From Terramyces sp. JEL0728 (Eukaryota; Chytridiomycota; Chytridiomycetes; Rhizophydiales; Terramycetaceae), in assembly GCA_027603945.1 (NCBI GenBank), contig JADIIU010000231.1:1-10081 (forward strand): 10,081 nucleotides of DNA, written 5' to 3'. The notes below the pieces were generated by a model. The model was not told the origin of the DNA. It worked only from the letters and a program-made list of their open reading frames with translations, and did not search any database. A program made the position numbers and the translations under genes. The stretch's first letter is position 1; each line of letters begins with the position of its first letter. Shown piece after piece: positions 2,058-10,081 of the stretch.

Positions 2058-3512
2058 ATGCGAACTATTAGAAAGATTTCATTACTATTAATATTTATTA
2101 CACTAATAATCACAATTTCATACGGCCCCTTTCTGCCCGAGAAGGATTACAGAGTAGGGGTGGCTACAAACTCACCAGAAATACAGTACAGCCAGCCGGA
2201 ATTCAAAATACCAACTGAAAAGGACGATTTCGAAGGATTCCAGGCAAATGAACTCTTTCCGATTCCTCACGACGGATATTTATACCAAAATGGACCTTTG
2301 ATGGTAAAACGAACACTTGCAATTGATAGAAAAAGTACCAATATTGCAATCGACCTTGCACTTCAAGATTCACTAAGAAGCATTGTTCAGACCGCCAAGT
2401 GCCCCAGTTACTGCAAATTCACATTCACTAATGACTACGAATCAATTGCAAACTCGTTCGACGCAATACTGACGGATAAACCAAAAGGAATCATTGTGCA
2501 TAACGCTTCATTACATTTTAAGAAAGCAGTGTATTTGCCAAATCCACCAAGTCAAGACCTGCTACGAAATTTTAGTTGGGTTGGGACAGATATTTATGTG
2601 GGAGAACATTCCATTCCACATAAATTTGAAAAGGAACTGTACAATCCGCCTAATCAAATGTGGGCTGTCAAAGGATCTACACTGGATTGGTCAAGTTTGG
2701 AGACGATGCCTTGCCGGTTGTGTGAACGTGTCACACAGCAGAAACAGGCTGTTATGTGTATGGTTGACAGAATAGAGCAGTCCTCAACAACTAGCGATGC
2801 CAATAGCCATATCAAGGAGAAAATAAATGGATTAGGCGCACTGGAAGGAACGGTTGATCAGTTGTACATAAACCACTACTCCAAAGCAAAATCTAGGAAA
2901 GAATACATGCTCAATTTAATGAAAGAAATGCAAACTAATGGTGTTTTCGTTGATGATTATGATCGGGAAGTTTTAGACAAGGACCTTTCCCTATGCATCA
3001 ATCCCAACAAGTATCTCAAGCCAGGCGAAATCTCCTTGGCGACAAAGTCATTCTTTGTTTACTATCAAATATTAAAACAAGGATACCAAAATGCAATGGT
3101 TATAGAAGACGATGCCATGTTTCACTATCATGCAACTGCAGAAACTATTAAAGAAGCTGTGAAATTCGTTCCGCCAAACTATTCTATCATACAGTTTGGC
3201 AGAGGATTAAATTCCGTCTTTCGATACGATAGGTTAAAATTGCCAAAAGAAGGAAAGCGTGTAATTACCGCCAATTTAGGAGATAACAGACATTGCACCA
3301 CATCCTATATTGTTAGCAAGCAAGGTGCGATTCTAATGTTTAAATCACTGCCGTTACACGATCCAATTGATTTTCAAATCACCGGATTGATTCCTCACAA
3401 TACACACAGTGGACCTATAAAGCATCCAGATTTTTCTACCTATAGTATATGGCCGGCCATATTCGAACCTAATTTTGATTTAGCCAAAAGTGGGATTAGA
3501 AATAAAGCATAA
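2058..3512 (+). CDS. Type II membrane glycosyltransferase with GT25-like domain
   Basis: Probable secretory-pathway glycosyltransferase, 484 aa. The N-terminus MRTIRKISLLLIFITLIITI is a basic tail plus a hydrophobic signal anchor at about residues 7-24, which favours this ATG. The C-terminal half, from about residue 270, resembles glycosyltransferase family 25 (LPS/collagen galactosyltransferase type). It has QLYINHYSKAKSRKEYM (the family's I-N-L...R start), KPGEISLATKSFFVYYQIL (like G-E-x-A-C/A-x-S-H), and MVIEDDAMFHY with the acidic motif E350-D351-D352, expected to bind metal and nucleotide sugar. Residues of about 95-190 are less clear. CKFTFTNDYESIANSFDAIL and NFSWVGTDIYVGEHSIP faintly recall the N-terminal domain of GT10 fucosyltransferases, a guess only. 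It lies next to another type II transferase on the same strand. AATAAA lies in the last codons. Confidence 0.72.
   Translation: MRTIRKISLLLIFITLIITISYGPFLPEKDYRVGVATNSPEIQYSQPEFKIPTEKDDFEGFQANELFPIPHDGYLYQNGPLMVKRTLAIDRKSTNIAIDLALQDSLRSIVQTAKCPSYCKFTFTNDYESIANSFDAILTDKPKGIIVHNASLHFKKAVYLPNPPSQDLLRNFSWVGTDIYVGEHSIPHKFEKELYNPPNQMWAVKGSTLDWSSLETMPCRLCERVTQQKQAVMCMVDRIEQSSTTSDANSHIKEKINGLGALEGTVDQLYINHYSKAKSRKEYMLNLMKEMQTNGVFVDDYDREVLDKDLSLCINPNKYLKPGEISLATKSFFVYYQILKQGYQNAMVIEDDAMFHYHATAETIKEAVKFVPPNYSIIQFGRGLNSVFRYDRLKLPKEGKRVITANLGDNRHCTTSYIVSKQGAILMFKSLPLHDPIDFQITGLIPHNTHSGPIKHPDFSTYSIWPAIFEPNFDLAKSGIRNKA
3501..3506 (+). terminator. AATAAA just inside the GT25-like CDS end
   Basis: AATAAA ends 3 nt before the TAA stop (3510-3512), inside the coding sequence. 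A functional role is inferred from the pattern across the window. Confidence 0.35.
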
Positions 3513-3645: not shown

Positions 3646-5705
3646 ATGACAAGAGAATTTGTCGATCCAGAAGACGAACTGGATTTAAATCGGATTCTAA
3701 AATTAAAGGCAGAGTCGCAGGAATACGGTAGATCGACAAATCAGGATATTGTCTGGAGCAAGAAAGTTGACCAGACAAAGCTAAAAGATCAACCAATACC
3801 AGAGATTCATGAACCATCGGTCGAGTCCTTGAGGCATGAAACTTTCAATGAATTTACAGAAATTTCAAACAGCGAATCTCTGACCGGCAGTTCAATGGAA
3901 AACCAAGAAATTGAATATCAGAAAATTTCAGCAAACCCAGATGAGAACGTGCCTGATGTTGTAGAAATCAGCTCAGAGACATCCACACATACAATAGAGA
4001 AGAAGAAACAAGCACAGATTGCGTCTGGACAGGACTTGCTGAAAGAACTATCCCTCACTGCAGCACCAGTTGCAGACAACTTGTCAAATGCAAAACCAAC
4101 TGTTAACGCATTTGAAATGATGCTAAGGAAACGCAAGCCAGATATAATTACAATCGACGATGAAAGGAAACACAAGCGGCCAGATTCAAAAGGAAAAGAG
4201 CCAGAAATAATGGAATTAAGATCGAGATCCAAAGGAAAACAGCCCGAGATTATTGAACTTGATAGTATATCTAAAGGTAAGCAAACAGAAGTAGTCGACC
4301 TAGATTATGCTCCCCCAAATTCACAAACCAAGGTCAATCCGTTCTTCATGTCCAAAAAAGAAAGAAAAGAACAGCTGATGATTGAAAATCAAATCAAATT
4401 ACAGCTCTCTATCAAAAAGAACCAGCAGATATCTGCTGAAATATCTGTTGGCAAGTCCACCAATCCGTTTTTTCAACCAAAGAAATACTTGACATCGACA
4501 GTTGGCTATCAGATGGAAAATATAATGCCTGGAAAAAATACGACCCATGTTGGATATACCAAATCTCATGATCCAGTTTTACGGAACTGGCTATGGAAAC
4601 CAAAAAGAAAATCTGCCGTTATTCCTAGTGGAGAGTTTGATTGCAAAATAAACAAAGAGAAGAGTCGGATCCCACCAATTTCAATCTATGCTTTGGAGGA
4701 ATTACTGGTATTTATTGGGGATCTTGTGCCAGAATGCGAACTAGACTCATCATGGCTCCAACCGTACTATAGCAGTCTGATTGAAGGCGAAATGATATCA
4801 CCACAAGGACTATGGGTAGACTATTTCAAACCAACAAAAATCAAGCAAGTAATCGGCCATCAAAACCAACAGGCTTGCAAAGAAATCAGAGATTGGATAA
4901 AGTATTGGAAACCGAAAAAGCATATTGATGATTTCGATGAAGGTGAAATGCTGGTAATTCACGGACCAGTTGGAAGTGGTAAAACTACACTTGCGCAAAT
5001 GGTTTGCAAACAAATGGGCATAGATGTAATTGAACTTGATACTTCAATGCTTCGAACCCAAAAGTTGTTTGATAGTGTTGTCGGTAACAGTGTTGTGCTT
5101 GTAGATGATGTAGATGTGGTAATGTACAAAGATAAAGGGTTTTGGCAAGGAATCGATACCCTTAAAACCAAAAACAGAGTTATTTTGACTACGTTGACTT
5201 TGCATGGGGACACAATGGATAACTTGAATGCCAAAGTGGTGGAGTTGAATACTGAAGGCGTGATCAACTGGGTTAGAGTAGTCTGCGCTTCAATAGGATA
5301 CTGGGTCGAAGGGAACTTGGTTGGGGATAAACGATCGTTGTTGAACCAAATTCAGTTTGGAAGCAAAGGAATCCCTAGAGAATTCGGAGGGGTCGCCTTG
5401 AAACCGGTAGAACCAGAAATATTACATGTAAATTTGACTAATATAAGGGCAGGCTTGAACTGGAACAAGATGAAATGATACCATTGTTTCCCAAATTGCA
5501 CATCCCAGAACCACTTGCTTATTTAGTGGAAGAAGAGGAGGATGTAGTCCCCCGTAAGCACAGGAAACCGTTTAAAGAAAACTATTTGTGGGATGTACCG
5601 TACATGTCACTGATGTGTGGTAAGATTGTTGGGAGAAGGAGAAAGAATTATCTGTACTGGCTGGATCTGGATGAAATTGAACAGCTACAACACATGTACT
5701 CTTAA
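3646..5705 (+). CDS. ELG1: Elg1/ATAD5-like RFC-like clamp-unloader subunit (2 exons)
   Basis: Large subunit of the alternative clamp loader that removes PCNA, including SUMO-PCNA, from DNA after replication. Exons are 3646-5427 and 5448-5705, joined across a 20-nt intron, giving 679 aa. Without splicing the protein would stop at 5478 and lose the conserved tail. The disordered N-terminus carries several SUMO-interaction-like motifs (PDVVEIS, PDIITIDD, PEIIELD, TEVVDLD), partly as tandem repeats, and PIP-like NAFEMML, NPFFMSKKERK and NPFFQPKK. The RFC-type region has LWVDYFKPTKIKQVIGH (typical of the Elg1 family), Walker A GPVGSGKTT (440-448), Walker B VLVDDVD (about 484-490) and sensor-1 NRVILTTL. 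Exon 2 supplies DVPYMSLMCGK and RRRKNYLYWLDLDEI, matching the family's C-terminal arginine-rich plus HYLD-like block. It is shorter than yeast Elg1. Another RFC-like subunit is less likely. Confidence 0.85.
4186..4311 (+). repeat. 3 x 42-bp in-frame tandem repeat of SIM-like motifs in Elg1
   Basis: Three adjacent 42-nt units (4186-4227, 4228-4269, 4270-4311) encode 14-residue copies: SKGKEPEIMELRSR, SKGKQPEIIELDSI, SKGKQTEVVDLDYA (residues 181-222). Each pairs a basic SKGK with a hydrophobic-acidic core (EIMEL, EIIELD, EVVDLD), the general form of a SUMO-interaction motif. The DNA copies have diverged, so the expansion is not recent. Confidence 0.8.
5428..5447 (+). other. 20-nt spliceosomal intron in Elg1
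   Basis: The sequence GTAAATTTGACTAATATAAG begins GTA, has ACTAAT near the end and ends AG. It is phase 0 and joins the AAA+ exon to the frame holding the conserved C-terminal block. A 41-nt alternative (5407-5447, GTAGAA donor) uses the same acceptor and also restores frame. The 20-nt form is preferred because its length and donor match the six other introns here. Confidence 0.75.
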
Positions 5706-5709
5706 TAAA
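5704..5709 (+). terminator. AATAAA poly(A) signal overlapping the Elg1 stop
   Basis: TAA at 5703-5705 is the start of TAATAAA, as at H3. The convergent proteasome gene ends only 78 bp away, which leaves little room for a 3' UTR. Confidence 0.5.
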
Positions 5710-5779
5710 TACGGCTGTGACTCTAATTGCACAATCTTTATGTATTAATCAATGTACGCAACCAATCACAATATAAAGG

Positions 5780-5785
5780 TTTATT
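5780..5785 (-). terminator. AATAAA poly(A) signal overlapping the proteasome alpha-2 stop
   Basis: Read on the minus strand, the gene ends GCT TAA TAA ACC, so AATAAA (TTTATT on plus) overlaps the TAA stop at 5786-5784. The arrangement is identical to H3 and Elg1. Confidence 0.5.
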
Positions 5786-6562
5786 AAGCAATGTTTGCCA
5801 AGTAATCTTGAATTTCTTGCGGCCCAAGAGATTTAAAAGTGGACACCAATTCTTGCTCTCCATCCCTGTTAGTAGTCATCAAATCATACGCAATGCCAAT
5901 CTCAATCATACTACTACTCAACTGTCCGTCCATACCTTCTTTCAAAGTAAGTATGGCAGTGTGAACAGCATCTTCAATTTCCATTTGTTCAGAGTATCGT
6001 TTTTCTAGGAATGTTTTTGCATTAACCATGTTCTTTCCGATTGCACTTGCTTTCCACTGCCAGAAAGTTCCACTTGGATCAACCTGGTAGAGCGAATGTC
6101 CAGTTGAATCGCTACCAGCAATCAATAACGAAACACCAAATGGCCGGACACCTCCAGATTGAGTATACTCTTGCATAATGCTATATCAGTAAAGGGTACC
6201 TTGCTACTTCTTTTACTAGCACAACCACTGGTGGCTCTTCCATGTAAACTCGTTTATATTCTTGAGCTGCTTTACGTGCTTTATCCAATAATACCCTTGC
6301 ATCAGGTCCCATGCCAGAGTATACCATTCCAATATTAGTTGAAATATTTGATATTTTTACTAGTGTTTTATCGTCTACTAGAATTGAAGGTACTTTCTTT
6401 TCCGTTGCAATGACGATACCATTAGTAGCTGGTTAACGACAGGATACCTTTGATTCCGATTGCAGTGATACCTGATGAGACTGCTGTTAATGCGTGTTCG
6501 ATCTGTACTAGTTTTCCTGATGGTGAGAATGTTGTCAGAGAGAATGCGTAACGATCACCCAT
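5784..6562 (-). CDS. PRE8: 20S proteasome subunit alpha-2 (3 exons)
   Basis: Structural alpha-ring subunit of the 20S proteasome core; it helps gate substrate entry and is not itself proteolytic. Exons are 6562-6448, 6428-6200 and 6180-5784, giving 246 aa, close to yeast Pre8 and human PSMA2. Removing two 19-nt introns restores the family sequence exactly at both joins: [14 protein letters not shown] and [15 protein letters not shown]. The N-terminus [20 protein letters not shown] is the alpha-type signature and fixes the start. Also visible are [44 protein letters not shown] and [18 protein letters not shown] with LYQVDPSG marks alpha-2 rather than another alpha subunit. One small deviation is that the usual IEYAL reads IEHAL. 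It converges with Elg1. No PACE-like proteasome box (GGTGGCAAA) is seen upstream. Confidence 0.96.
6181..6199 (-). other. 19-nt intron 2 of proteasome alpha-2
   Basis: On the minus strand this reads GTACCCTTTACTGATATAG, phase 2. Splicing rebuilds a Ser codon (AG|C) between KEVA and IMQEYTQ, as in the family. The branch-like box is ACTGAT. Confidence 0.93.
6429..6447 (-). other. 19-nt intron 1 of proteasome alpha-2
   Basis: On the minus strand this reads GTATCCTGTCGTTAACCAG, phase 1. Splicing rebuilds an Ala codon (G|CT) in [14 protein letters not shown], a conserved stretch. Unspliced, the frame meets TAA within five bases of the acceptor. The branch-like box is GTTAAC. Confidence 0.94.
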
Positions 6563-6701
6563 TTTTGATTTTTAAATTTGAACAAGGGTTTTCAAATTAT
6601 TTTCTTGGACAAAAATATTGCCCTGATATTCTTCACATTGCAAGTGGAGTGGATATTATTGAATCCTTTATTCCTTTTAGAATTCTTCATGTCGCTCTAA
6701 C

Positions 6702-6731
6702 TCGTATTCATATAATCTGAAATGAATACGA
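6702..6731. repeat. Perfect 10-bp inverted repeat with 10-nt loop
   Basis: TCGTATTCAT (6702-6711) and ATGAATACGA (6722-6731) are exact reverse complements, separated by ATAATCTGAA. It lies in the 245-bp spacer between the end of the PPR-like gene and the start of the proteasome gene, both on the minus strand. It could be a hairpin at the PPR 3' end or a paired protein-binding site upstream of the proteasome gene. Confidence 0.6.
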
Positions 6732-6807
6732 CCTTCAGACAAAGTAAATGAACATAGTTTGAACCTGAAAGTACACTTCAATCTGAATAACAGCCCCACA
6801 GATACAA

Positions 6808-8796
6808 TCAATATTGTAGTTTATTAATCAAATACTCAATATTATTTTCCAGACTAAAGCCTTTCATATCCGGATGCTGAATCTTCATCCCTTGCCGAAC
6901 CATAAGCTTGTTTCTCTTCATTCTCTTCCAACATTGAAATACAGTCTCTTGATCAAATAGATAAAGCAAATTAAATACATATATATCAGGTGCGGGGTAC
7001 TTTTCAATTTCATTGATCAGGAATGGGATGTGTTCTTGATTATTTTGTACAATCCGTAACAATAAATACAGGAGATTCAAGTCTTTTTGCTGTGTCTTGT
7101 AAATAGAATAGAAAGAATAAAAATCATTCTTTTTCACTAGCTTTTCCATTTCTATCTTGTACAAAATTTGTTCTGGTTTGGAAAAGTTAAGCGAGCTTGT
7201 TTTAAAGTCCTTTGCTAGCAATATTGATATTTGGTATGGGATAGTTATTGGAAACTCCAGGTAATTGTATAAATCAATGTAGTAGTCTTTTGGGTTGTAT
7301 CTAATTATTAGCGTTAGTATCCACGCGAATCTTTGTCTATCTACTACGCTCATTTCATTTACTCTATCTCTAAGACTACTCTTCCAGTCTGCGGATGTAC
7401 CAGCTTGTGGAGTATAGCTAACAGGCTCTGGGTTTGAATCATAAACATCCACCAAATGAGATGACAAACCAGAGATATTCAGCGACTGTTCAATCGATAA
7501 AATAGTAGAAATAAATCTAGAATCGCCCCGCTTTAAGAAATAGTTCAGCAATATTCCGCGGTACCCCAAGTCAAGATGCACTCCACTGTCTTCAATCAAC
7601 TCTATCATCCTATCTATTTTGTCAAACTCTTTGATTTTCGTATACATTTTAATCAGGATCGAAAACACTTTTTCATCTGGTATGATATTGTGATGGAGAA
7701 ATTCATCAATAAAGTAAATAAACATGTGAATAAAGTGTTTTGATTTTGTTTTCTCACAAACCAGGTAGATTAGTCTTGTTAGGATTGTTCTATCTGGCTT
7801 GTAGTGCTGCAATAGTTGGTTGTACCAGAAACAAGCATGTAGCAGAGAATGCGTTCCCTTTTCTGTGTAATAATGGATAAATGTCTTGTAGACGTAAAAT
7901 TGGTATTTGTAATTACTGGTGATGGATTTCGGCACTCTACTACGGCCATTTGATTTTATATTTGCTTTTAAATATTCCTTGTCGTAGTACATGTGTGAAT
8001 CCAGGATTTCTTTGATTTCTGTAGGTATTTTACTGTCCTTGCGAAACAGCTGATCAACTTTGGTCTCATTTTCCGCACTGAAATCCTTATCCAAAGATTC
8101 AAGAAACCTTTTACCGATATTTAATGGTATATCTTGGAAATACAAGCAAGCTGCCAAATCCACATTCTCTTTCATTACTGAGCAAATTAAAATTGACTTT
8201 AACTCTCCAGTATCCATAACGTTATTCACATTGATGTTGATTCCAAATAAGAGTTTGATCAGTCGCTTCAATAGCGGTTTGTCTGTGTCATTTAAATATA
8301 GCAGCAAAATCATTAAATTGAGAGATTTGTCTTTTTCTGATAGCATTTCGCACAGTTGTTTGTCTTTGTATCTGTGGGTATAAATATCTTTTAGATATGG
8401 TGCTTCATATGTGCTGGGTATTGCAGGTATTCCGCTATCTGGTATTGCATGTGAGTTCCCACTCTCTGGTACTAAATGCGAAATATCACTCCTTGATATT
8501 AAATGAGGTGTTAATTGATCAATTCTATTCGCCAGCAAATCCTTTGACACTGCAGTCCTAATAGTGGGACAATTCTTGTCCATGTCATATTCTTTCACAC
8601 TCTGCTGGAAATCCCCAAGGGAAACAAACGTCGATGGATTCTGTTTGTATTTCTGATTACAATGCTCTGTATCCTTGAAGAAATTGTACCCAAATATCCG
8701 CTGCTGGTTTTTGTATATGTAGTCTGATTTTGTCGTACTGTTGAATAGCACTTGTTCAAGGTACTGCAATCCTTTTATATTATGGATTACTTTCAT
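6808..8796 (-). CDS. PPR-like protein, probably organellar RNA factor
   Basis: Intron-free 662-aa protein, mostly alpha-helical, Lys/Ile/Leu/Tyr-rich. The clearest element is a pentatricopeptide-type helix pair at about residues 373-410 (PDEKVFSILIKMYTKIKEFD, then KIDRMIELIEDSGVHLDL). It is flanked by similar units from about 333 (KPDRTILTRLIYLVCEK) and after 411 (GYRGILLNYFLKRGD), with another degenerate unit near the C-terminus (APDIYVFNLLYLF). PPR proteins bind RNA, usually in mitochondria, and act in processing, stability or translation; the exact target cannot be told. The N-terminus (MKVIHNIKGLQYLEQ) is not a convincing presequence. Residues of about 98-127 hold short Pro/Ser/Gly repeats (SHLVPESGN, SHAIPDSGI). 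The start is the first ATG of the frame. It is tail-to-head with casein kinase upstream. The family call rests on repeat pattern, not on a recognised orthologue. Confidence 0.5.
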   Translation of the reverse strand: MKVIHNIKGLQYLEQVLFNSTTKSDYIYKNQQRIFGYNFFKDTEHCNQKYKQNPSTFVSLGDFQQSVKEYDMDKNCPTIRTAVSKDLLANRIDQLTPHLISRSDISHLVPESGNSHAIPDSGIPAIPSTYEAPYLKDIYTHRYKDKQLCEMLSEKDKSLNLMILLLYLNDTDKPLLKRLIKLLFGININVNNVMDTGELKSILICSVMKENVDLAACLYFQDIPLNIGKRFLESLDKDFSAENETKVDQLFRKDSKIPTEIKEILDSHMYYDKEYLKANIKSNGRSRVPKSITSNYKYQFYVYKTFIHYYTEKGTHSLLHACFWYNQLLQHYKPDRTILTRLIYLVCEKTKSKHFIHMFIYFIDEFLHHNIIPDEKVFSILIKMYTKIKEFDKIDRMIELIEDSGVHLDLGYRGILLNYFLKRGDSRFISTILSIEQSLNISGLSSHLVDVYDSNPEPVSYTPQAGTSADWKSSLRDRVNEMSVVDRQRFAWILTLIIRYNPKDYYIDLYNYLEFPITIPYQISILLAKDFKTSSLNFSKPEQILYKIEMEKLVKKNDFYSFYSIYKTQQKDLNLLYLLLRIVQNNQEHIPFLINEIEKYPAPDIYVFNLLYLFDQETVFQCWKRMKRNKLMVRQGMKIQHPDMKGFSLENNIEYLINKLQY
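6820..6825 (-). terminator. AATAAA just inside the PPR-like CDS end
   Basis: On the minus strand AATAAA encodes Asn-Lys in the last codons and ends 9 nt before the TGA stop (6810-6808). It is a likely but unproven poly(A) signal. Confidence 0.35.
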
Positions 8797-8813
8797 TTTG
8801 AAAAAAAATTATA

Positions 8814-8823
8814 GTCATGTGAC
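8814..8823. promoter_or_regulatory. E-box-like near-palindrome upstream of the PPR-like gene
   Basis: GTCATGTGAC is a CATGTG E-box core with GTCA/TGAC flanks (8 of 10 positions symmetric), 17 bp upstream of the PPR-like ATG. A T-rich run lies between it and the start on the coding strand. It could bind a bHLH factor; one short match in AT-rich DNA is weak evidence. Confidence 0.2.
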
Positions 8824-8949
8824 TTTTGATAAATTCAGTCCTGAATAATATCAGAGTACAGGCAAAGATAATAACGGATACTATTTATTAATTCTATCGT
8901 GGCCCTCTATTAATCTGTCGAACTTTTGATTCATCGTAGTACTGATTAT

Positions 8950-10050
8950 TCATTGGAACCAAAGGTTGAGTAAGCTGCGATACACTTTGTCTTGTTCTTC
9001 TTTGGTTCGGTATCCTATTGTTAATAAAAAGTACTTTTTCAGACGTTCTTGATTGTCGCGCTCTTCTTTAACCAAAATCCAGTCAAATACATAGTCGTAT
9101 ACATAGGATTGTCTGATAAAAAGGTCCCTAAACATTTGTCTTAACCAGGTATAATCTGGCGTATCTTCAAACCGCAATTTTCTTACATAATCCAAATAAG
9201 TTACAAATTCTCTTGGCAAGCCTGCGCATAGATCTTGGGTTGAAGTGGTGATTTTCTTTTCCATGATAGCATCGTACTTTACTTTCTTTGTGTTTCCTTT
9301 CATCCCTTGCCATGGTAACGCTCCTTTGCAGAAATAAATGAATACATAGCCAAGCGACTCCAAATCGTCTCTTCTAGATTGTTCTTGTTAACAAAATCTT
9401 ACCAACGCCTAAATGGGTATTTATCGAAACATATCTAGCAGTTCCGGTCAAGCTTTTGCCATCTCTGTAGGGAATGTGTCGCTGCGTACGTGGATCTTTG
9501 TACTTTTTAGACAGACCGAAATCAATCGCATTCACTTGGTTTCCTCTTTTGTTGATTCCCATCAAAAAGTTATCGGGTTTAATACTAGAATTAGTTCAAC
9601 CTACTCTCTGTGCAAAAAGTGCTTGGAGTGTATGTATTCCAGCCTTGCAATCATTTGATCTGCCAGGAATAGCACTGTCTTTAGAGAAAACTTTCTTCCA
9701 CAGAAATTAAACAAATCTTCTAATGAGGGTCCCAACAAATCCATTGCCATGCACAAATATTCTCCATGGACACCAAACCACAGCACAAACGGAATTCCAA
9801 CTACATTAGCGAAAAATACCTCCCCCAGCCAATGACTTGTATACTCTGACTTCATATTCCAGCTGCGGATGTCTACTTCGAATGGGTTCTGTTTTTAAAG
9901 CAATTTCGGCATTTGTCAAAACATCAGTTGCTATATTAGCAGTTGAATACCCAAGTAAAGTTCTCCAAAACTACCAGCACCCAATTTCCTACTCACTCTA
10001 TATTTCCCTCCCACTAATGCTGCTCCAAATGGGTTTGTAGGTGCCGACAT
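8950..10050 (-). CDS. hhp1: Casein kinase 1, Hhp1/Hrr25 (CK1 delta/epsilon) type (5 exons)
   Basis: Ser/Thr kinase acting in DNA damage response, vesicle traffic and cell-cycle control. Exons are 10050-9951, 9930-9820, 9800-9605, 9584-9403 and 9383-8950, giving 340 aa after removal of four 19-20-nt introns. All catalytic parts are present: glycine loop [10 protein letters not shown] (about 23-32), K46 in IALK, HRDIKPDN (H134-N141), DFG (157-159), [15 protein letters not shown] and [25 protein letters not shown] and [20 protein letters not shown] match the Hhp1/Hrr25 branch rather than the Cki1/Yck branch. The tail after YDYVFDW is only about 40 residues, with no Gln/Pro-rich extension and no prenylation motif, so it is much shorter than in Hrr25. 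The start [10 protein letters not shown] was chosen for its short lead before GKYRV; an in-frame ATG at 10077 would add nine residues. Upstream sequence is cut by the window end. Confidence 0.96.
9384..9402 (-). other. 19-nt intron 4 of casein kinase 1
   Basis: On the minus strand this reads GTAAGATTTTGTTAACAAG, phase 1, with donor GTAAG and branch-like box GTTAAC. Splicing rebuilds Glu197 (G|AA) in HLGVEQSRRDD, a nearly invariant CK1 block. Confidence 0.95.
9585..9604 (-). other. 20-nt intron 3 of casein kinase 1
   Basis: On the minus strand this reads GTAGGTTGAACTAATTCTAG, phase 2, with an ACTAAT box. It splits the codon of the catalytic Asp136 (GA|T) of HRDIKPDN, so its removal is essential for an active kinase. 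Confidence 0.96.
9801..9819 (-). other. 19-nt intron 2 of casein kinase 1
   Basis: On the minus strand this reads GTATTTTTCGCTAATGTAG, phase 1, with a GCTAAT box. Splicing rebuilds Val71 (G|TT) in LAGGVGIPFV. Confidence 0.95.
9931..9950 (-). other. 20-nt intron 1 of casein kinase 1
   Basis: On the minus strand this reads GTATTCAACTGCTAATATAG, phase 1, with a GCTAAT box. Splicing rebuilds Ala34 (G|CA) in ELYLATDVLT. Retention leads to a frameshift just after the glycine loop. Confidence 0.94.
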
Positions 10051-10081
10051 TTTTGAAAAGAAATTCAATGGCTTCATCTTT

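Follow-up and report, generated by a model that had tools for sequence, protein, structure and literature searches.

The 10,081-bp stretch of the Terramyces sp. JEL0728 genome analysed here (hereafter the window) comes from a fungus of the Chytridiomycota (Rhizophydiales, Terramycetaceae) and carries three genes interrupted by introns of 19 or 20 nt: an RFC1-like AAA protein gene, the gene for proteasome subunit alpha type-2 (PSMA2) and a delta-like casein kinase 1 (CK1) gene. Genes and introns are listed below, with the distance from the first G of each intron to the putative branch-point A and the tail, that is, the remaining distance to the intron end.

3646..5705, plus strand: RFC1-like AAA protein gene, 679 aa when spliced (Pfam AAA and Rad17 P-loop; depositors' model)
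5428..5447, plus strand: RFC1-like intron, 20 nt, GTAAATTTGACTAATATAAG; branch A at 14, tail 6
5784..6562, minus strand: PSMA2 gene, 246 aa when spliced
6181..6199, minus strand: PSMA2 intron, 19 nt, GTACCCTTTACTGATATAG; branch A at 14, tail 5
6429..6447, minus strand: PSMA2 intron, 19 nt, GTATCCTGTCGTTAACCAG; branch A placed at 15 by the motif scorer, tail 4
8894..10077, minus strand: CK1 (delta-like) gene
9015..9034, minus strand: candidate CK1 intron, 20 nt, GTACTTTTTATTAACAATAG; motif score 6.6
9384..9402, minus strand: CK1 intron, 19 nt, GTAAGATTTTGTTAACAAG; branch A at 15, tail 4; motif score 0.9
9585..9604, minus strand: CK1 intron, 20 nt, GTAGGTTGAACTAATTCTAG; branch A at 14, tail 6
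9801..9819, minus strand: CK1 intron, 19 nt, GTATTTTTCGCTAATGTAG; branch A at 14, tail 5
9931..9950, minus strand: CK1 intron, 20 nt, GTATTCAACTGCTAATATAG; branch A at 15, tail 5

A preliminary description of the window had placed seven introns in it, all of 19 or 20 nt, in what it took to be a fungal genome. All seven are exact in position, in length (in order 20, 19, 19, 19, 20, 19 and 20 nt, hence four of 19 nt and three of 20 nt) and in their GT and AG ends - each starts with GTA - and the organism is indeed a fungus. The enumeration itself was incomplete, as the window probably holds an eighth intron and the length class also takes in 21 nt. Removal restores the protein for every one of the seven. 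Unspliced, PSMA2 is full of stops; without its two introns it encodes an uninterrupted 246-aa protein whose alignment to its best match in the Protein Data Bank (7qve_i, E 5.6e-95) is free of gaps at both junctions. Similarly, CK1 without its four introns aligns gap-free with 3sv0_A over residues 22-314 (E 1.4e-136), with all four junctions inside the alignment. The six introns of these two genes had been described as fixed to the base, and this stands: at none of the six junctions do the solved homologues require a gap. The intron at 6429-6447 has a low motif score (-0.3), yet it is exact by homology.

The RFC1-like intron at 5428-5447 is likewise spliced out of the depositors' model for 'replication factor C subunit 1' (P0241, 679 aa), in which residues 380-679 are 100% identical to our spliced product. 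The Boothiomyces RFC1 orthologue confirms the reading frame past the junction, and there is a two-residue gap immediately before it, so that this orthologue does not fix the intron to the base. Near the C-terminus of PSMA2, a 24-nt GT..CTAACAG stretch (5866-5889, minus strand; motif score -0.9) is not claimed as an intron; PSMA2 is here 12 residues longer than its best solved homologue, and removing the stretch would leave 4 extra residues.

The candidate at 9015-9034, absent from the preliminary list, bears on the end of CK1: the stop codon ends at 8894 if the segment is spliced and at 8950 if it is retained. The C-terminus obtained by splicing is that of the depositors' CK1 model (P0006) and resembles that of a Globomyces model (P0005); against splicing, the Boothiomyces CK1 model (P0002) ends in the read-through frame. 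This is probably the eighth intron of the window. The depositors' models include at least five of the eight, namely those starting at 9931, 9801, 9585 and 9015 (P0006) and at 5428 (P0241). Around the 19-nt intron at 9384-9402, the depositors' CK1 model omits 29 residues of the kinase domain.

Segments this short might be suspected of being assembly or sequencing artefacts inserted into intact genes. This is scarcely credible: there are thousands of instances, on both strands, sharing donor, branch and acceptor signals at fixed spacing, and several of the segments are removed in the depositors' protein models. The numbers come from searches of the whole genome (15,016,339 bases in 231 contigs) and of a 210-kb sample (210,081 bases, read on both strands), in which the window is joined by one 10-kb region from each of contigs 1-20. 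These 20 regions were picked by contig number and a fixed offset, not by gene content, and second-order Markov sequences served as controls for motif spacing.

Three lines of evidence for a 19-21 nt class are independent of any weight-matrix training. First, the spacing in the sample from a GT(A/G) donor to a branch motif plus AG is in excess at 19 nt (115 observed vs 40 expected) and 20 nt (130 vs 51), with 59 vs 50 at 21 nt and 43 vs 45 at 18 nt. Second, a gene finder that had a coding model, bare GT-AG ends and a flat length prior of 10-150 nt, and that lacked any motif model, returned 59 introns, of which 29 fall at 19, 20 or 21 nt (10, 15 and 4) and at most three at any other length. Third, the strict pattern GTAAN{6,7}YTAAYN{1,2}YAG has 4,346 matches in the 15.0 Mb, against 181 for the reversed pattern. 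A stricter spacing motif gives 35 vs 0.6 at 19 nt, 31 vs 1.8 at 20 nt and 14 vs 0.6 at 21 nt in the sample. When splice-site weights were learned, the gene finder predicted 113 introns, 82 of them of 19-21 nt and 26 longer than 22 nt, and weight-matrix counts in the sample were 65, 99, 44, 16 and 11 at 19-23 nt and between 2 and 14 at other lengths from 15 to 39 nt. The sharp genome-wide peak at 19-20 nt, set beforehand as the check on the preliminary description, is thus present.

The weight-matrix counts are conservative, in that the cut-off of 2.5 would miss two of the seven window introns. In the sample the strict pattern has 54 matches (2 in the control), compared with a weight-matrix excess of about 196 at 19-22 nt. 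Scaled up, the genome total is estimated at about 16,000 introns from the weight-matrix excess or about 12,000 from the excess in a table of branch geometries, both of them estimates that near-identical contig pairs would inflate.

If the segments are introns, their excision should join coding sequence in frame. We scored how the flanks fit after excision for weight-matrix candidates with clearly coding flanks, setting aside those without (23, 43, 20 and 11 at 19-22 nt, and 104 controls). Flanks are in frame for 37/42 candidates of 19 nt, 54/56 of 20 nt, 21/23 of 21 nt and 5/5 of 22 nt; in controls of 25-44 nt the figure is 20/58, which is the chance level. Lengths divisible by three are less telling because an uninterrupted coding stretch would pass too. 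The more stringent comparison is therefore between segments of 19-20 nt (91/98) and controls without such lengths (13/42). An in-frame stop is found in 16/21 of the frame-consistent 21-nt segments against 51/91 of those of 19-20 nt, weak support for selection for stop codons in 21-nt introns; that all 17 of the 21-nt introns of the gene finder contain one is uninformative, as stopless 21-nt introns are invisible to it. Introns of 18 nt are not supported. The sole gene-finder prediction of this length becomes 21 nt if, on a reading of the letters, the UGDH motif GYVGGP is kept, and of four weight-matrix candidates the two that are frame-consistent say nothing because they are stopless and a multiple of three.

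Homology extends these results beyond the window. From the 49 predicted genes with short introns, we took ten that resemble known proteins. Together these have 22 short junctions, 16 of them inside a Pfam match, four in HEAT repeats and two outside. CCT zeta fits its solved homologue with four short introns (19, 21, 20 and 20 nt), a predicted 50-nt intron in this gene being in reality a 20-nt intron plus a missed coding stretch. Topoisomerase I fits its solved homologue with a 19-nt intron, a 64-nt intervening sequence and a stopless 21-nt intron, which is indicated by homology and was kept by the gene finder as seven extra residues (RLQLMIG).

The internal structure of the introns is as constrained as their length. 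In the gene-finder set the donor is GTA followed by A at +4 (64/113), by T (47) or G (31) at +5 and by T at +6 (73), giving a consensus of GTAATT or GTAAGT, and a YTRAY branch motif, typically (C/T)TAA(C/T), is found in 69 of the 87 predicted introns of 18-22 nt. GT-AG ends with such a donor consensus are those of U2-type introns. The main excess lies in the four combinations of a first-G-to-branch-A distance of 14 or 15 with a tail of 5 or 6 (61, 44, 37 and 25, where 4-6 would be expected in each). A distance of 13 nt shows no excess (3 and 5, with an expectation of about 6), and hence there is a cliff between 13 and 14 nt. A minor excess is seen with tail 6 at distances of 16 nt (15 vs about 5) and 17 nt (17 vs about 5), and with tail 4 at 15 nt (13 vs 4.7), tail 4 being the best fit in two of the seven window introns; other scattered combinations reach 14 vs 4.8. 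Donor, branch point and acceptor had been described as almost touching, and with 14-15 nt to the branch A and a further 5-6 nt to the end, this is an apt account.

The spliceosome was examined through seven of its parts (U1, U2, U6, SF1, Slu7, Isy1 and Cwc25), of which five were found. U2 snRNA is present (140 bits) with an intact branch-recognition stretch, GUGUAGUAUCUGUUC, as are genes for a protein with an SF1-HH domain and for Slu7, Isy1 and Cwc25, the last three themselves with predicted tiny introns. We conclude, with a probability of roughly 0.94, that the segments are U2-type spliceosomal introns belonging to a fungal nuclear genome and that 19-21 nt is the dominant intron class of this genome, a conclusion drawn from sequence that supports the earlier reading of ultra-short spliceosomal introns in a fungus; the observation behind that reading is confirmed, and was right and understated. 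Each intron would be a minimal cassette: a GTA donor, a (C/T)TAA(C/T) branch in which 14-15 nt separate the first G from the reactive A, and an AG 5-6 nt later. Such segments would be excised from RNA, with U2 pairing with the branch motif in the usual way. Fourteen nucleotides may be the smallest loop that this spliceosome can branch, and deletion pressure could have shrunk the introns onto this floor without removing them.

A number of points weigh against this conclusion. The introns are known here from genomic DNA, and their excision from RNA is what we infer. Since gene-finder introns of 19-21 nt served to train the weight matrix, its counts and the frame tests are not fully independent of the coding model. 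U1 snRNA was not found in the genome by its Rfam model even at E <= 10, and U6 gave no Rfam match above the cut-off and none by two patterns; the assembly may lack either. The bacterial and archaeal control genomes are uninformative on the sensitivity of the U1 and U6 search. Two 27-bit Rfam matches obtained in the U6 search are probably not U6, and the loci L025 and L026, which came out of the U1/U6 search, look like chance matches. Finally, 26 of the 113 gene-finder introns exceed 22 nt, and the stricter motif at 30-139 nt occurs 142 times against 82 expected, a diffuse excess without a peak.

The missing U1 and U6, together with the shortness and almost fixed length of the segments, would suit removal at the DNA level, as of the internal eliminated sequences of ciliates, or by a non-spliceosomal enzyme, as of tRNA-type introns. 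This we regard as very improbable, since the segments carry the GT..YTRAY..AG signals of U2-type introns and are still in the assembled genome, and since genes for U2, SF1, Slu7, Isy1 and Cwc25 are present. The longer predictions raise a different alternative, namely that the short segments are real, but belong to a broader fungal intron length distribution that our methods see poorly. Besides the excess at 30-139 nt, Isy1 and topoisomerase I have intervening sequences, of 62 and 64 nt respectively, that fit homologues, and the gene finder permitted no intron above 150 nt. Of the gene-finder introns above 22 nt, three were checked: those of 44 nt (CK1 of the window) and 50 nt (CCT zeta) are misread tiny introns, and that of 64 nt (topoisomerase I) is exact by homology. 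The diffuse excess could reflect chance pairing of real acceptors with an upstream GTA, or hidden longer introns. The flat-prior gene finder, with at most three introns at any length outside 19-21 nt, weight-matrix counts that are at background by 24 nt, and the choice of sample regions without regard to genes all speak for a narrow class, and we consider a broader distribution improbable, if less so than non-spliceosomal removal.

The existence of intervening sequences of 62 and 64 nt does mean that the 19-21 nt length is not exclusive, and there is consequently no evidence for an upper limit. The sequence in topoisomerase I (L018, 3842-3905, plus strand), bounded by homology, can be divided into three adjoining units (22, 21 and 21 nt), and in each of them a donor, a branch-like motif and a TAG are recognisable, though a single 64-nt intron is also possible. 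The 62-nt intron of Isy1 (L029, reverse complement 1754-1815) has the usual branch and acceptor end and, by eye, no clean split into tiny units. At the 5' end of the same gene (reverse complement 1229-1293), 65 nt can be read as three units resembling tiny introns, with A and CAA between them; the protein of Boothiomyces, by contrast, would suit a single intron of about 70 nt. Tandem tiny introns are rejected as a general rule. With a loose cut-off, which admits 305 candidates, the sample contains one abutting pair of 19-22-nt units, the mean per gap length being 0.35 pairs; two stricter cut-offs yield no such pair, leaving topoisomerase I and the Isy1 cluster as single cases.

As to how a spliceosome might accommodate such introns, one precedent is Stentor coeruleus, whose introns are described in PMC9505925 as 15-16 nt long, with the branch A at 10 of 15, a 5-nt tail and GUAAUU as the commonest start. 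The same source conjectures that in Stentor a steric clash is averted because the Cwc25 plug has been lost and the N-terminus of Isy1 is altered. Terramyces is like Stentor in its tiny introns of fixed length, with the branch A at a fixed place, a 5-nt tail and a GUAAUU donor, and in a non-conserved Isy1 N-terminus, but differs from it in a strong YTAAY, where Stentor lacks a strong branch consensus, and in retaining the GGG plug of Cwc25 that Stentor has lost. The N-terminal plug is canonical, MGGGDLNLKKSWHP being identical to the solved CWC25 homologue 5yzg_X; Cwc25 here is not of the plugless Stentor type. If the branch lies where the motif puts it, loss of the plug is not needed for a 14-nt loop. 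The predicted Isy1 N-terminus has MAPKTLAQKQE in place of MARNEEKAQSMLYRFRE, and alignment to the solved ISY1 homologue 6ff7_w begins only at residue 37. It is divergent also in Boothiomyces models and, more loosely, in those of Globomyces, Kappamyces and Gorgonomyces, whereas Isy1 models of Spizellomyces, Fimicolochytrium and Chytriomyces keep MARNEEKAQSMLYRFREAQAAELG. With these relatives represented by protein models, the association between Isy1 divergence and tiny introns is a correlation only. One could nevertheless propose a canonical spliceosome retuned to a 14-nt loop and a 5-6-nt tail via the Isy1 N-terminus, not Cwc25, with some of the longer intervening sequences being concatenated tiny introns removed serially through zero-length exons; we hold this combined proposal to be unlikely, albeit less so than the alternatives weighed above.

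Some observations lie to the side of this argument. Cwc25 is found in near-identical stretches of two contigs (L032 and L033, contigs C30 and C33), together with a neighbour that looks desaturase-like by eye, as if both haplotypes had been assembled. The remainder of the window contains three single-exon reading frames. Two, at 434-1702 and 2058-3512 (plus strand), have a hydrophobic stretch near the N-terminus, judged by eye; the latter matches glycosyltransferase family 25 and the former has no Pfam match. The third, at 6808-8796 (minus strand), encodes 662 aa and is likewise without a Pfam match.

The introns of ordinary chytrids such as Batrachochytrium are much longer than those of Terramyces. 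A likeness lies in the intron-rich genes: for Batrachochytrium dendrobatidis, 37,153 introns are predicted, according to PMC5364385. Comparable short introns had been called rare; the list of known cases also takes in mikrocytids and Blastocystis. In the Bigelowiella natans nucleomorph, more than 800 introns form a narrow class of 18-21 nt, with shrinkage but no loss (PMC10245619); the narrow class recalls Terramyces, whereas the setting is a relict endosymbiont nucleus in extreme reduction rather than a 15-Mb fungal genome. Mikrocytos mackini and Paramikrocytos canceri have near-uniform introns of 16-17 nt with conserved sequence, 224 introns and a reduced spliceosome (PMC10245619). Here too the almost uniform length is shared, as is the conserved sequence, but these are parasites with 224 introns, as against a fungus with an estimated ten thousand or more and five of the seven spliceosome parts searched for. 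Blastocystis, with a median of 19 nt (PMC12817076), is similar in median length and differs in being a stramenopile. In PMC12316389, the 23-nt intron reported there is called comparable only with those of Stentor and Bigelowiella.

Among the open-access literature matches listed, judged by titles and abstract openings, there was no report of fungal introns of about 20 nt. As the depositors' models hold at least five of the eight window introns, the data are already public, though we found no remark on them. Tiny introns as a kind are known from some protists and from nucleomorphs; what seems new is the host group, the number of introns, the exact floor and the intact Cwc25. For annotation, the depositors' CK1 model, with its loss of kinase-domain residues around one 19-nt intron, is a warning. 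More generally, spliceosome geometry sets the lower bound on intron length, and this fungus would provide a test of the smallest piece that can be excised. In the literature seen, the genomes at that bound are those of ciliates, of parasitic or symbiotic protists, and of relict nuclei. With such introns, a canonical Cwc25, a sharp floor of 14 nt and a strong consensus at the branch, a cultured fungus would help to separate the general needs of splicing tiny introns from the peculiarities of individual lineages.

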